From Thermoflexibacter ruber (GTDB taxonomy: Bacteria > Bacteroidota > Bacteroidia > Cytophagales > Thermoflexibacteraceae): DNA of 64,000 nucleotides. Positions 39,694 to 44,829 of the stretch are shown in pieces. The notes under the pieces are model-generated. The model saw only the letters and a program-made list of their open reading frames with translations. It was not told where the DNA came from and did not search any database. The translations under genes were made by a program, and so were the position numbers. Where the stretch lies: positions 1 through 64,000 of the forward strand of contig NZ_FONY01000006.1 of NCBI RefSeq assembly GCF_900113045.1, read 5' to 3'. The first letter of the stretch is position 1, and every line of letters begins with the position of its first letter.

Positions 39694-40056
39694 TTATTCC
39701 AAATATAGCTTAACCCCTTCTCGGCTTACCTCTATAATTCTATGATTTTCTAATAGCTGTGCAATATAAGCAATGTTATTTTCAAAAATAGTTATCAATT
39801 CTTTGTTTTTGATGTTGCCAGTAGTAACATATACTAACTGTTTCAAAACTTTACTAATTCTTACTGTATCAACGAAATCGGCATCTTTGGAAATAATGAT
39901 GCGGTCTTGTTTGGTAGCAATAGAGATAAGCGTATCATCAGAAGTGTGGTTTTGCGTATCGGGAATGTCTTTTGTATGCAGGGTATCATAGGAAAGATTG
40001 TTTAACTTCTGTGCCAAACCGTAAGGTAGCTGGGCATCTACCAAAAATTTTTTCAT
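39694..40056 (-). CDS. DUF5615 PIN-like toxin
   Basis: A 120-residue protein with the DUF5615 layout: MKKFLVDAQLPYGLAQKL holds the first acidic residue, then DTLHTKDIPDTQNHTSDDTL and IIISKDADFVDTVRI bring further Asp residues of a PIN-like nuclease site. The family is paired with DUF433 antitoxins and is thought to act as an RNase toxin. It follows the DUF433 gene by 16 bases on the same strand, so the pair forms one operon. Confidence 0.85.
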   Translation of the reverse strand: MKKFLVDAQLPYGLAQKLNNLSYDTLHTKDIPDTQNHTSDDTLISIATKQDRIIISKDADFVDTVRISKVLKQLVYVTTGNIKNKELITIFENNIAYIAQLLENHRIIEVSREGVKLYLE

Positions 40057-40423: not shown

Positions 40424-41074
40424 TTACTTATACTCCATCTTTGCTCCATACCCTTCCGAAGTTTGGATTCGTATAGGTCTGCCATCAGTTCTCTCTATGA
40501 CCATAGTCTGCAATCGGTCAAAGTTGTTACCGTGCCAAAATAGCTTAAACTCGTTTTCTGTCCACTCTTTGGGAGTAAAAGTGGGGAAACTGACTACGTA
40601 CCTTGGGCTATCGGTTTTGCTTGGCAGGTTAAAGGGTTGGGCTATTTTCCTGTAATTGACTAAGTGCAGGTATAGGGAATACGCAGGAAGCCCCAAAGAG
40701 GTATAAGCATAAAACCAACGCCAAACTTCCTGAAAAGTAATGCGTCTGATATAGGAACGAGAAATCCACAAGTCTTTGACATCGGAATCAAACATAGGGT
40801 AGTTGATGCGGATAACAGAGGTAGTATTGGGTTCGTAGCTATAGGAGGTATCCAAGCGGTGATAAAGCTTGGGAAGGTCATCTATCTGAATCCAGTCGCC
40901 GTCATAGATTTCTTGGTCATAGTGAATCACTACCTTGTTGCCCTTGCCCTGTGTATAAAATTTGATACCTGATTCAGGTACAGGCACGATGGAAAACTCC
41001 TCTTGCTTAGTACAAGAGAAAAGGAGGAGGAAAACTACCAAAGCAAGCAAATTTTTCATAAGTAGATTTTTCAT
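40424..41074 (-). CDS. Cassette A lipoprotein 2 (unrecognised GDWIQIDD family)
   Basis: A 216-residue lipoprotein with lipobox LLFSC, Cys21. The first third has the family phrase GDWIQIDDLPKLYHRLDTSY and the C terminus ends IERTDGRPIRIQTSEGYGAKMEY. Between them the sequence is poorly conserved compared with the three paralogues at 41146, 42704 and 43358. I do not recognise the family and no enzymatic motif is visible; it looks like a small beta-rich, surface- or periplasm-facing protein. MKNLL is repeated at the start (ATG at 41074 and 41059), so the exact start is uncertain. Last gene of cassette A. Confidence 0.75.
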   Translation of the reverse strand: MKNLLMKNLLALVVFLLLFSCTKQEEFSIVPVPESGIKFYTQGKGNKVVIHYDQEIYDGDWIQIDDLPKLYHRLDTSYSYEPNTTSVIRINYPMFDSDVKDLWISRSYIRRITFQEVWRWFYAYTSLGLPAYSLYLHLVNYRKIAQPFNLPSKTDSPRYVVSFPTFTPKEWTENEFKLFWHGNNFDRLQTMVIERTDGRPIRIQTSEGYGAKMEYK

Positions 41075-41100: not shown

Positions 41101-41136
41101 AGAGCATCAAACTTGTTGAAATAAGTTTGATGCTCT
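41101..41136. terminator. Repeated hairpin, copy 1
   Basis: AGAGCATCAAACTT (41101-41114) pairs with AAGTTTGATGCTCT (41123-41136), an uninterrupted 14-bp stem with an 8-base loop. It lies in the 71-base gap between the two lipoprotein genes of cassette A. A nearly identical 72-base gap separates the two lipoproteins of cassette B. T-runs flank it mainly on the plus-strand side, so it may act as a leaky terminator or mRNA-stability element. Confidence 0.6.
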
Positions 41137-41145
41137 GTATTCTTT

Positions 41146-41778
41146 TTACTGATACTCTATCTTTATCTTGTACCCTTCAGATGTTTGAATTTTAATATCT
41201 TTTCCATCAAGGCGTTCTATATTCAGCACTGCGTACTTGTCAGCGGTTCTTTTATCAGAAAACCCTTGCCCATCAGGGAAAGAATAGTAATACTGCAAGG
41301 AATCGCTGAAGGTTTTAATATTTTCAAAACTTATTTTGTACTGCATCTGAGTAGTTGAGGGCTTTATCCCATAAGGATTAGCTAATGCTCTTGTTTCTGT
41401 CAAATTCCTAAATAGAGAATAAGCTGACAAGCCGCCTGAGGCAAAGCTTTTACGCCACCTTACAGATATAAAACCCAAATTCCATTTTTCGGAAACCCAC
41501 CCATTAGAGAAATCTTCAATTAAAGGCATATCTCTTGGATAGGTGGTTTGTATGATTGCTAATCCATCAGGCTGGTCAACAAATTTATTTGTATCTAAGT
41601 AATGATAAAATTTCTCATTATCATCAAGCTGAATCCAAGCCCCATCAGGCACTTCCTCAAAAGTAACTTGTACCTTGCTACCACTTGTTTTGGGTTCTAT
41701 ATTTTTATTTTTGCCACAAGCCCAAATGCCTAAGCAAAAGAAAAAGGCTAATAGTAGATTTTTCAAATATGTTTTCAT
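41146..41778 (-). CDS. Cassette A lipoprotein 1 (GDWIQIDD family)
   Basis: A 210-residue lipoprotein; the lipobox GIWAC gives Cys21. The family phrase reads DGAWIQLDDNEKFYHYLDT and the C-terminal end reads IERLDGKDIKIQTSEGYKIK. The middle, including GWVSEKWNLGFISVRWRKS and SAYSLFRNLTETRALANPYG, aligns with the paralogues only loosely. Function unknown. It is 18 bases downstream of the broken PKD-like gene of cassette A, in the position held by 43358-43972 in cassette B. Confidence 0.75.
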   Translation of the reverse strand: MKTYLKNLLLAFFFCLGIWACGKNKNIEPKTSGSKVQVTFEEVPDGAWIQLDDNEKFYHYLDTNKFVDQPDGLAIIQTTYPRDMPLIEDFSNGWVSEKWNLGFISVRWRKSFASGGLSAYSLFRNLTETRALANPYGIKPSTTQMQYKISFENIKTFSDSLQYYYSFPDGQGFSDKRTADKYAVLNIERLDGKDIKIQTSEGYKIKIEYQ

Positions 41779-41796
41779 GATCTTATTTATATTAAA

Positions 41797-42497
41797 TTAA
41801 AGATTATTTGCACAAGTTTCTGTGCTTCCTGTTGTTTTCCCACACCCACCAGGTAAAGCACTGACACATACAGTTACATTAGGATTGCGAGAGGTGTAAG
41901 AAATTTCAATAAATAATTCTCCTTGTGAATTAACACCTTGATTTAGTATAGTTAAACCAGTAAATCCACTAAACGACCAAGAGCCAGAAGTTGCATTAGT
42001 ACCTATTCCTCTATATCTAACTTGATTTGTTCCAAGAATATCTCTCTCTATGTCTTATACACCTACAATTTTAGTAACATTCAAAGAAGCATATCTTGTT
42101 GCAGGGGTAGGAGAACAAGAAGTAGCTGTAACATTGATTGTGCCTGTGCCTCCTGAACTATTCCAAGTAATATTAATGACTGAACCAAAATTGCTGGTGA
42201 TAGAGCCTCCTGTAACTGACCATGAATAACTACCACAAGTCGCTCCTGTATAAGCGTAGGTATGCGTACCATTCACACATACATTGGTACTACCTGTAAT
42301 AGCCCCTTGTGCTAATACATAAGTATTTAGCAAGCAAGCTATAACTGCTCCTTGCCACTTTCCAAACAACAGTCCAAAGATTTTTGCGAGAAACCCGATG
42401 AGAAAGTTCCCATCAGTAAGAAAAGCGTAAGCACCCGCCCGCTCAGATTCTTTCTGGGGGGGGGGGGGGTAAAACAGTGATTTTGAAATACTTTCAT
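41797..42497 (-). pseudogene. Cassette A secreted PKD/Ig-like protein, broken copy with poly-C tract
   Basis: From ATG 42497 the frame crosses a 14-C tract and enters a signal peptide (GRVLTLFLLMGTFSSGFSQ), but ends at a TAG at 42339-42341 after 52 residues. The PKD-like body is in another frame, open from a TTG at 42369: it has its own signal-like stretch (GAVIACLLNTYVLAQG), then TGSTNVCVNGTHTYAYTG and TINVTATSCSPTPATRY, and stops at a TAA at 42055-42057. The same frame continues past that stop for 85 codons (SGSWSFSGFTGLTILNQGV, NVTVCVSALPGGCGKTTG) to a TAA at 41797-41799. So one frameshift and one nonsense codon separate three coding blocks. The 42369 frame alone would give 104 residues. 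Confidence 0.7.
42456..42469 (-). repeat. Homopolymer tract of 14 C (minus strand) in a coding start
   Basis: Fourteen consecutive G on the plus strand, codons 10-14 of the frame opened by ATG 42497. At 14 the signal peptide is in frame with the ATG; 15 or 12 would put the ATG in frame with the PKD body opened at 42369. Assembly of such tracts is error-prone. Confidence 0.8.
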
Positions 42498-42567
42498 AAG
42501 CTAATTTGGATTAAATAATTGAAAAAAGAAGTAGGTTTTGAAAGTCTAAGCAGTGAATTTGATGATA

Positions 42568-42595
42568 AAAACAAAGGGCGATGCCGCTTTGTTTT
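42568..42595. promoter_or_regulatory. Conserved stem-loop upstream of the cassette A secreted-protein gene
   Basis: AAAACAAAG (42568-42576) pairs with CTTTGTTTT (42587-42595), and GGC/GCC extend the stem inside with a GAT loop. It is conserved exactly at 44686-44713, about 72 bases before the start codon of each cassette. It could be a terminator or an RNA leader structure. Confidence 0.5.
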
Positions 42596-42658
42596 GTTAA
42601 ACTCATGCTCAATACGAAAGGAAATAGCGGGAGGGTTGCAAGGAAGAGAAAAATTTTA

Positions 42659-42692
42659 GAGCATCAAACTTGTTGAGATGAGTTTGATGCTC
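42659..42692. terminator. Repeated hairpin, copy 2
   Basis: GAGCATCAAACT (42659-42670) and AGTTTGATGCTC (42681-42692) form a perfect 12-bp stem. On the minus strand it follows the stop of the lipoprotein at 42704 by 11 bases and is trailed by TAAAATTTTT, so it should end the cassette B transcript. Confidence 0.7.
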
Positions 42693-42703
42693 ATATTTCT
42701 TTT

Positions 42704-43285
42704 CTACTGATACTCTATCTTGGCATCATAGCCTTCGGAGGTCTGAATCTTGATAGGTTTTCCGTCAAGGCGTTCTATGATGATGGTTGTTATTTTGGCA
42801 AAATTATTGGCAATCATAGCCTCACGTTCATATGCAAAAAAGTCTTCTTGCTTACCAAAATTTTTAAAAGTAATTTTGTAGATGCTTTTTTCACTTATCT
42901 TATCATAAAAATTGCCTATTCTACGAACATTTACTAAATGATAATAAAGAGAGTAAGAAGGCACTCCTCCAATTCCATCACCAGAAATCAGCCAGCGATT
43001 AGAAATCAAGCCAATCGTCCAACGCTGACTTATCCATAAATAATCTATCAAATCTTCCATTGGAAATAGTTGTGGGTAGTTAGAACGAACAAATATGCTT
43101 CCGTCAGGCAAATCTTTAAACCTCATAGTATCTAAACGATGAGGTAACTGTGGCAAATCGTCTATCTGAATCCAATCCCCATGTTTGATGTTACCAAAGG
43201 TAATGCTTACCTTGTTTTTAGGAGAGATTTTGGATTCTGAACAAGCAAACGCACCAATCAGAAGTAATATAATGAGATTTTTCAT
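42704..43285 (-). CDS. Cassette B lipoprotein 2 (GDWIQIDD family)
   Basis: A 193-residue lipoprotein; the lipobox GAFAC gives Cys15. SITFGNIKHGDWIQIDDLPQ and the C-terminal IERLDGKPIKIQTSEGYDAK are almost identical to the neighbour at 43358, while the middle (RWTIGLISNRWLISGDGIGG, SYSLYYHLVNVRRIGNFYDK) differs much more. This pattern of constant ends and variable middle is seen in all four paralogues. Function unknown. It follows its neighbour by 72 bases that contain one hairpin copy. Confidence 0.78.
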   Translation of the reverse strand: MKNLIILLLIGAFACSESKISPKNKVSITFGNIKHGDWIQIDDLPQLPHRLDTMRFKDLPDGSIFVRSNYPQLFPMEDLIDYLWISQRWTIGLISNRWLISGDGIGGVPSYSLYYHLVNVRRIGNFYDKISEKSIYKITFKNFGKQEDFFAYEREAMIANNFAKITTIIIERLDGKPIKIQTSEGYDAKIEYQ

Positions 43286-43313
43286 ATACAGTCTAATTTT
43301 TAGGTTTTTATGA

Positions 43314-43347
43314 GAGCATCAAACTTGTTGAAATGAGTTTGATGCTC
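43314..43347. terminator. Repeated hairpin, copy 3
   Basis: GAGCATCAAACT (43314-43325) and AGTTTGATGCTC (43336-43347), a perfect 12-bp stem with a 10-base loop, in the gap between the two cassette B lipoproteins. Its surroundings match copy 1 almost base for base. Confidence 0.6.
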
Positions 43348-43357
43348 TGTATTCTTT

Positions 43358-43972
43358 TTACTGATACTCTATCTTGGCATCATAGCCTTCGGAGGTCTGA
43401 ATTTTGATAGGTTTTCCGTCAAGGCGTTCTATGATGATGGTAGATAGCTCTTTAAAATTGTCTATTAGCATTCTTTCATTCTTATAAAGCTCAAAATATG
43501 CCCTTTCAGCAAAGGCTTTAAACGTAACCTTATAAATAATTTTACTTGAATCATCATTAAAAGCTCTTTCGTAAAATCTGCTATTCCTACGAACATGTAC
43601 CAAATGATAGTACAAAGAGTAAGCTGGCATACCAGTTACTACCTCTGGGGAAGGAGACCACTTATCAAAGATAGCTCCTATTCCCCATCTTTGGCTTATC
43701 CATAAGTAATCTTCTAAATATTCCATAGGAAATAATTGGGGATAGCTTGACCTAAAAAAAGCACTACCATCATCAAAAAATCTTATGCGCATCGTATCTA
43801 ACAAGTGAGGCAGTTGTGTCAAATCGTCTATCTGAATCCAATCTCCATGTTTGATGTTACCAAAGGTGATGCTTACCTTATTTTTAGGCGTTTCTTCTTG
43901 AGGGGCTACGTCTGTTTGTTTGCAAGCAACAGCAAGTAACAGACAAAGTGAAAAATAAAATAGTTTTTTCAT
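43358..43972 (-). CDS. Cassette B lipoprotein 1 (GDWIQIDD family)
   Basis: A 204-residue lipoprotein; the lipobox LAVAC gives Cys17. SITFGNIKHGDWIQIDDLTQ is followed by SYPQLFPMEYLEDYLWISQR and the C-terminal IERLDGKPIKIQTSEGYDAK. It starts 4 bases after the stop of the secreted PKD-like protein gene, so translation of the two is probably coupled. No known domain is recognised. A partner role for the secreted protein is inferred from the conserved gene order. Confidence 0.78.
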   Translation of the reverse strand: MKKLFYFSLCLLLAVACKQTDVAPQEETPKNKVSITFGNIKHGDWIQIDDLTQLPHLLDTMRIRFFDDGSAFFRSSYPQLFPMEYLEDYLWISQRWGIGAIFDKWSPSPEVVTGMPAYSLYYHLVHVRRNSRFYERAFNDDSSKIIYKVTFKAFAERAYFELYKNERMLIDNFKELSTIIIERLDGKPIKIQTSEGYDAKIEYQ

Positions 43973-43976
43973 AGTG

Positions 43977-44594
43977 TTACATATTTAGATTTGGGAAGTT
44001 AGAAGCACAAAAAGGTTGCCTTGAAGGAGGTTGACAGTCTATTGGGCAGGTATTGACGCATACGACAGCACTACTTGTAGATGAAAACCTAATAACAATT
44101 TTTCTACCTGACCTACTTATTTCTTGATAGTCGTTAAAGTTTGTAAAACTCCATTGGAAACAATTTGCAACAGCGCAGTCTGCCTCAAATTCATATTGAA
44201 ACTTTCCATTAACTATGCCTTGGGCTATCCATTTTATATCGCAAGGGGGCTTAATCACATTCACACTGAGAAAACCAGACCTTTCCGCAGGAGTGGGAGA
44301 GCAACTGTAAGCATTGACTGATATGTAGCCTGTAGTACCACTATTGTTCCACTGCACAGTAACCGAGATATTGTTAGAGGAAAGAATAGTTCCACCTCCT
44401 ACAATCCAATTTGCCGTAGAGCAAGTAGTCCCTATAATAGAATAGGTCTGTGTACTACTAACGCAAACATTAGGACTCCCTACAATGGTAACGCTGCCAA
44501 CCTGCGAGAAACCCGATGAGAAAGTTCCCATCAGTAAGACAAGCGCAAGCACCCACCCGCTCAGATTCTTTCTGGGGGGGGGGGGGTAAAACAC
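43977..44594 (-). CDS. Cassette B secreted PKD/Ig-like protein with poly-C tract at its start
   Basis: A 205-codon frame opening with GTG at 44594. After a Pro run coded by the C tract comes RKNLSG and a clear signal peptide, WVLALVLLMGTFSSGFSQ. The mature part has one PKD/Ig-like unit (SVTIVGSPNVCVSSTQTYSI, VTVQWNNSGTTGYISVNA) and a second Cys-rich beta unit (CFQWSFTNFNDYQEI, VIRFSSTSSAVVCVN). No T9SS sorting domain is present. An upstream ATG at 44614 is conserved with cassette A but out of frame at 13 C: it would end after 17 codons at TGA 44561-44563. With 14 C it would read MKVFQNQCFTPPPPRKNL into the signal peptide. Expression is thus either from the GTG or switched by tract length. Confidence 0.7.
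   Translation of the reverse strand: MFYPPPPRKNLSGWVLALVLLMGTFSSGFSQVGSVTIVGSPNVCVSSTQTYSIIGTTCSTANWIVGGGTILSSNNISVTVQWNNSGTTGYISVNAYSCSPTPAERSGFLSVNVIKPPCDIKWIAQGIVNGKFQYEFEADCAVANCFQWSFTNFNDYQEISRSGRKIVIRFSSTSSAVVCVNTCPIDCQPPSRQPFCASNFPNLNM
44574..44586 (-). repeat. Homopolymer tract of 13 C (minus strand), candidate phase switch
   Basis: Thirteen consecutive G on the plus strand, coding Pro residues just before the signal peptide of the 43977 gene. One base longer (14) or two shorter (11) would bring the conserved ATG at 44614 into frame. The sister tract at 42456-42469 has 14. Confidence 0.8.
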
Positions 44595-44685
44595 TGATTT
44601 TGAAATACTTTCATAAGCTAATTTGGATTACATAATTGAAAAAAGAAGTAGGTTTTGAAAGTCTAAGCAGTGAATTTTGATGATA

Positions 44686-44713
44686 AAAACAAAGGGCGAT
44701 GCCGCTTTGTTTT
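44686..44713. promoter_or_regulatory. Conserved stem-loop upstream of the cassette B secreted-protein gene
   Basis: The same stem as at 42568-42595, 9 bp plus an inner GGC/GCC. The bases of the stem and loop are unchanged between copies although flanking positions differ, which hints at a function. Confidence 0.5.
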
Positions 44714-44776
44714 GTTAAACTCGTACACAATACGAAAGGAAATAGCGGGAGAGTTGCAAGGAAGAGAAAAATTTTA

Positions 44777-44810
44777 GAGCATCAAACTTATTGAAATGAG
44801 TTTGATGCTC
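44777..44810 (-). terminator. Repeated hairpin, copy 4, terminator of fabI
   Basis: GAGCATCAAACT (44777-44788) and AGTTTGATGCTC (44799-44810), a perfect 12-bp stem 19 bases after the fabI stop. On the minus strand TAAAATTTTT follows, giving a good terminator between fabI and cassette B. Confidence 0.72.
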
Positions 44811-44829
44811 TGTATATTTTAGTGGTAAA

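Follow-up and report, generated by a model that had tools for sequence, protein, structure and literature searches.

A poly-C tract of Thermoflexibacter ruber as a probable phase-variation tract of an exported-protein family, with one cassette a likely decaying chimera

The poly-C tract at the start of cassette A is in all likelihood a phase-variation (contingency) tract belonging to a lineage-specific family of exported proteins, in which cassette A itself would be a decayed chimera; this reading draws on reading frames, repeats and homology. Translation of the family genes would start at an ATG 11-45 nt upstream of a short repeat, and replication slippage would alter the repeat length and so decide whether the ATG shares a frame with the downstream signal peptide and mature protein. 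PKD-type products would carry one or more Ig/PKD-like domains, and the genes with an octamer repeat would encode a longer lipoprotein; the lipoprotein gene directly downstream of most PKD-type members may switch together with them, either by coupled translation or by polarity. Cassette B, the second cassette of the window (the whole stretch of 64,000 nucleotides analysed here), would at 13 C be a gene of this family whose ATG leaves it OFF.

Cassettes A and B and their shared leader

The two cassettes lie well inside a contig of 190,866 bases, and the following features were delineated:

42385-42698, minus strand: copy A of the leader repeat, comprising a hairpin, an untranslated region, the ATG, the tract and the signal peptide; it shares 95% identity with copy B at 44503-44819
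42339-42497, minus strand: 52-residue frame of cassette A that opens at the ATG, spans the tract and signal peptide 1, and closes at a TAG
42456-42469, minus strand: C14 tract of cassette A
42055-42369, minus strand: cassette A body, with a second signal-like segment and a PKD-like domain (PF19408), not in the ATG frame, ending at a TAA
41797-42054, minus strand: rest of the cassette A body past the TAA, in the same frame and resembling the C-terminal part of B
44503-44819, minus strand: leader repeat, copy B
44574-44586, minus strand: C13 tract of cassette B; ATG 44614 OFF, GTG 44594 in frame with the body
43977-44573, minus strand: cassette B body, with a signal peptide and two predicted beta-sandwich domains; 198 open codons after the tract
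44776-44811: hairpin element (GAGCATCAAACT... type), with other copies at 43313-43348, 42649-42692 and 41101-41136
43358-43972, minus strand: lipoprotein I, directly downstream of B with a 4-nt gap
42704-43285, minus strand: lipoprotein I paralogue
41146-41778, minus strand: lipoprotein I paralogue downstream of A, with an 18-nt gap
40424-41074, minus strand: lipoprotein I paralogue

The leader repeat, given as 308 bp in a preliminary description of this DNA, is real and close to that size, its copies measuring 314 bp in A and 317 bp in B. Its 3' end falls on the last codon of the apparent signal peptide (judged by eye), and apart from the tract length the alignment places four base differences between A and B in the shared leader coding sequence, all of them residue-changing. 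The hairpin elements are possibly terminators. A pattern of ten C was found 9 times in the window as compared with 0.03 expected from shuffles, and all nine occurrences lie within the C14 and C13 tracts; genome-wide, 41 distinct C runs of at least 8 were counted, three of which reach at least 12, and the A and B tracts account for two of these three.

Translation from the ATG at 42497 gives MKVFQNHCFTPPPPRKNLSGRVLTLFLLMGTFSSGFSQ and 14 further residues before the TAG that ends at 42339, in agreement with the preliminary description, as is the position of the PKD-like body one base off the ATG frame (d=1). That description had also proposed that one added A in the run of A just after the signal peptide, or a tract of 15 or 12 C, would connect the ATG to the body; the arithmetic is right, but it overlooked a second fault, an in-frame TAA at 42055-42057, located outside any homopolymer, that would still cut the body frame. 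When the ATG is brought into the body frame through the tract, signal peptide 1 falls out of frame and the body's own signal-like segment alone remains. The body aligns with residues 34-199 of B, with one TAA inside the match. It scored 27.9 bits against PF19408 (PKD-like), for which the Pfam gathering cut-off is 25; the body of B gave no Pfam match at all, and the homologue C94-2 on another contig and the body from genome G008 gave none to PF19408. B and A are related by sequence.

Cassette A is most likely, as read from its junction, a chimera: a B-type leader, complete with signal peptide, has been fused to the point where another member's signal peptide begins, with the two frames out of register; the earlier suggestion that the repeat had been pasted onto a related gene with its own signal-like segment is thereby supported. 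In the simplest history, recombination would have pasted in the B-type leader, and decay of the body would have followed or been simultaneous. Because the body carries a stop, cassette A is most likely a decaying pseudogene, and with two faults, the junction frame and the TAA, the view that it lacks a complete protein as sequenced holds. It is improbable that cassette A instead works as a three-way switch, set by tract-length class within a family repertoire of swapped repeat types; in such a switch one class would use signal peptide 1 to secrete a peptide of 52 residues, another would use the signal peptide of the body to make a PKD-like one-domain product that stops at the TAA, and the third would yield nothing.

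In cassette B, the ATG at 44614 leads to 17 residues and a stop at 44561, so that the gene is OFF from this ATG as assembled, as compared with a body frame that appears open for 198 codons 3' of the tract. With 13 C, a GTG at 44594, 8 nt 5' of the tract, shares the frame of the body, and B may therefore be readable as sequenced. The structure model of the B body (pLDDT 70.7, pTM 0.52) retrieved mostly antibody and other Ig-like chains with TM-scores of at most 0.45 among the matches listed (50 of 1916), from which we predict with moderate confidence a beta-sandwich protein and nothing more specific.

Repeats in the same slot of related genes

A search of the genome with the B protein uncovered further copies on contigs C94 and C29, giving five poly-C leaders with a common ATG, spacing and tract. 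The signal peptide follows the tract in four of them (A, B, C29 and C94-2) and is hidden by an N gap in C94-1, the sequence of which enters the gap directly after eight C. In C29 and C94-2 the ATG is followed after 31 or 32 nt by a short tract, of 8 and 9 C respectively, and then by a signal peptide and the start of a PKD-like region. As the end of contig C29 and the start of contig C94 lie inside the same kind of gene, the two contigs probably adjoin. The bodies of C94-0 and C94-1 are identical over 95 bases, beyond which they differ, so that other members of the family do undergo exchange or have been duplicated recently.

Within the same genome, to which the octamer search was directed, an octamer repeat, AAATTTCC, occupies the slot between ATG and signal peptide in four lipoprotein-type genes, three on contig C94 and a fourth on contig C52 (L024 4136-5456, 8643-9711 and 10781-12034; L164); one of the four is in frame and three are not. 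The three C94 genes have 4.6, 5.8 and 8.6 copies of the octamer, and the poly-C and octamer genes on this contig have upstream stretches in common. Of 16 leaders, nine have an exact TAnnTTTG promoter box at most 160 nt upstream, though at no constant distance; A and B have none there.

Across 13 genomes of the bacterial family, a profile search gave matches in seven, the genome itself counted. In PKD-like genes of other genera among these matches, the slot that precedes the signal peptide contains C13 in one gene of G008, (AC)11.5 and (AC)15.5 in two genes of G005, and a 7-mer in about 10.6 copies in one gene of G004. Such a leader was absent from several other profile matches, which are long proteins of several domains or are truncated by the end of a contig. 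In a pattern census of the same 13 genomes, C runs of at least 12 occurred in four and (AC) runs of at least 21 nt in four; this added genes that the profile had missed, namely two (AC) genes in G009 (12.5 and 10.5 copies), one of which encodes a CarboxypepD_reg domain and has a lipoprotein of a second type (lipoprotein II) next door, and two genes in G008. Contig C261 of G008 is identical to JALONO010000282.1 of Bernardetiaceae bacterium isolate Prado079, from which the family name Bernardetiaceae is taken here. Repeat lengths differ among near-identical paralogous leaders: C13 and C14, 11.5 and 15.5 copies of AC, and 4.6, 5.8 and 8.6 copies of the octamer.

Several tracts were set apart from the family and do not enter the frame counts below. 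A 7-mer at L117 lies antisense inside a 1273-aa ORF, which we take to be methionine synthase, and was not retained as a family member. The C10 tract at L056 lies within an ORF, apparently antisense (by eye), and the C8 at L048 deep within a longer open frame. No gene with the order ATG, repeat, signal peptide was recognised by eye at G003:C36 (C12) or G008:C84 (AC), and at G008:C82 (C12) an open frame is present without a signal peptide by eye. The tract at G003:C341, (AC)19 at L137 1221-1258, precedes the ATP-binding part of an ABC-transporter-like gene (by eye), is out of frame as assembled, and was excluded from the frame counts as sitting in that gene.

A number of further features were observed along the way. 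In the genome itself, a gene for a predicted exported protein (G000:C106; L001 3714-4472) carries an in-frame C12 tract immediately 3' of the signal peptide sequence, and near this gene an apparently shortened gene (L001 4552-5340) lies beside a transposase-like ORF (by eye). Likewise, in a long open frame of G005 (G005:C59) an in-frame C14 tract (L124 686-699) comes directly behind the signal peptide. The C94 array contains three short genes, about 94% identical and helix-turn-helix-like by eye (L024 6227-6474, 10428-10674 and 12810-13085).

Frame counts, neighbouring genes and rival explanations

The repeat units are not multiples of three and lie within the 5' coding region, as judged from sequence with the start codon inferred. 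Fifteen genes, chosen by repeat length or homology and hence not a random sample, could be read from an inferred ATG through the repeat to the signal peptide; cassette A (composite), C94-1 (N gap), and G000:C106 and G005:C59 (in-frame tract after the signal peptide) were left out. Two of the 15 are ON and 13 OFF, the latter split 6:7 between the two wrong frames. Were the phases equally likely, five ON genes would be expected, and at most two in frame would be found with P = 0.079; single ON or OFF calls are uncertain, since assemblies can misjudge homopolymer length. The 6:7 split is what random slippage would give, rather than a fixed programmed shift. Translational ON/OFF phase variation is the most likely explanation; weighing against it are the small number of ON genes, the GTG of B, the short tracts of C29 and C94-2, the irregular occurrence of the promoter box and the two unrelated tracts flagged by the rule described next. 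As a control, a rule requiring an ATG within 60 nt upstream and a hydrophobic stretch just downstream of the tract was applied to the 41 C tracts of at least 8 in the genome; it flagged six, four of which belong to the family and two of which look unrelated by eye. Two genes escaped the rule, C94-1 through its gap and the C106 gene through the position of its tract, 3' of the signal peptide.

The genes downstream were surveyed for 15 genes, ten of them PKD-type, one of which was excluded with only 20 nt left downstream. In eight of the nine PKD-type genes with enough downstream sequence, the next ORF spans 204-268 aa and begins 4-35 nt after the stop, and six of these eight ORFs contain a strict lipobox pattern; the G004 gene has no downstream ORF within 200 nt. 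For the four octamer genes and G008:C299, the next ORF lies 74-104 nt away in three of five and none is found within 200 nt in the other two. Lipoprotein I is present in 2 of the 13 family genomes, and a scan of the genome contigs with it led to one locus; lipoprotein II is present in 7 of 390 genomes of the order, five of the seven in this family. Searches against NCBIfam (10 proteins) and PADLOC (7 proteins) returned no match, and the structure model of lipoprotein I is poor (mean pLDDT 61.8). A DUF5615/PIN-like protein at 39694-40056 of the window (minus strand) adjoins the lipoprotein array.

Programmed frameshifting, whether ribosomal -1 or by RNA polymerase slippage, would join the ATG to the body in one fixed phase and give constitutive low-level expression, and it would account for the single phase (d=1) shared by the bodies of all four readable poly-C leaders of the genome (A, B, C29 and C94-2). 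Across the 15 genes, from which A is excluded, the phases are nevertheless distributed 2, 6 and 7, with two genes directly ON, and to our knowledge AC, 7-mer and 8-mer repeats are not classical frameshift sites; we regard this mechanism as very improbable. An error of assembly or homopolymer length, which would make cassette A an intact gene in reality, is unlikely: homopolymer lengths are indeed error-prone, and other family copies lie at contig ends and beside an N gap, but A and B are far from the ends of their contig and no homopolymer surrounds the TAA. A start at GTG, TTG or CTG near or after the tract, which would make the ATG irrelevant and leave tract length with little effect, is unlikely overall, even though such codons were picked by the ORF lister and the GTG of B would retain the basic residues of the signal peptide; for this in-frame GTG we weighed the alternative start slightly up and phase variation slightly down. 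Cassette A has a CTG at the equivalent position, however, the body frame of C94-2 has a TAG directly 5' of the tract, and in C94-2 starts 3' of the tract would drop the basic residues. In addition, the ATG and its spacing are kept across paralogues, an F-(S/T)-P motif before the tract is common to the leaders, that of G008 included (by eye), and a GTG 5' of the tract would still depend on tract length.

The preliminary description had further suggested that cassette A may be a silent donor copy. A role as donor in gene conversion of B or other copies would be in keeping with a cassette that is unreadable as one frame and has a leader repeat 95% identical to that of B, and the 95-bp stretch shared by C94-0 and C94-1 points to exchange or recent duplication in the family. 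Cassette A nevertheless retains the upstream region, the full leader repeat, the ATG, the tract and the signal peptide, and the stop in its body argues for decay. The longest identical stretch between the A and B bodies is 9 nt, and that between the A body and any of six copies compared is at most 15 nt (one of these copies offering only 60 nt), which leaves little for patchwise gene conversion to use and means that A could not easily donate patches. The suggestion is accordingly not upheld and a donor role appears very unlikely; a part in phase variation, shared across the family, is the better explanation of the tract.

Meaning and comparison with known systems

If phase variation is the correct reading, homologous genes with mono-, di- and heptanucleotide repeats at one position would form a natural case for the gain, swap and loss of tracts, and the same set would bear on what selects for switching in a Bacteroidota family other than that of Bacteroides. 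Cassette A would illustrate how repeat-controlled genes can turn chimeric and decay. By analogy with Opa, the family proteins may be surface molecules under changing selection, exerted, we speculate, by phages, grazers or attachment surfaces, for instance.

In silent-copy systems such as pilS/pilE and vls, a non-expressed homologous copy accompanies an expressed-type copy, an arrangement that cassettes A and B resemble; cassette A differs in lacking long shared body blocks and in having a complete upstream region. Another parallel is offered by the opa genes of Neisseria, for which passages of PMC3960869 describe CTCTT repeats in the leader-peptide coding region, whose number sets the frame through slipped-strand mispairing, with recombination among the many copies. 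Both systems carry repeats with a frame-breaking unit in the part of the gene that encodes the leader peptide; unlike in opa, the unit varies here among homologous genes (1, 2 and 7 nt, with 8 nt in the lipoprotein-type genes), and the predicted products are Bacteroidota Ig/PKD-like proteins next to lipoproteins, with no Opa-type beta-barrel model among the Pfam matches of the window bodies and relatives submitted.

The family is also like the genes that are reversibly inactivated through 5' homopolymeric tracts, Listeria inlA with its poly-A among them, in which, according to parts of PMC2831843, the length of a homopolymer near the 5' end sets the frame and a very short peptide results when it is out; the tracts treated in those parts are poly(A) and poly(T) of 5-10, whereas here they are poly-C of 8-14 in one exported-protein family. 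In Bacteroides, of the same phylum, surface products vary in phase through DNA invertases, as outlined in passages of PMC11868660, and site-specific inversion there contrasts with the repeat slippage proposed here. Among the matches listed in a literature search, the titles and abstract openings contained no mention of repeat-mediated phase variation in Bernardetiaceae. Taken together, the class of mechanism is well known, and the interchangeable repeat units are the most unusual point of this family.
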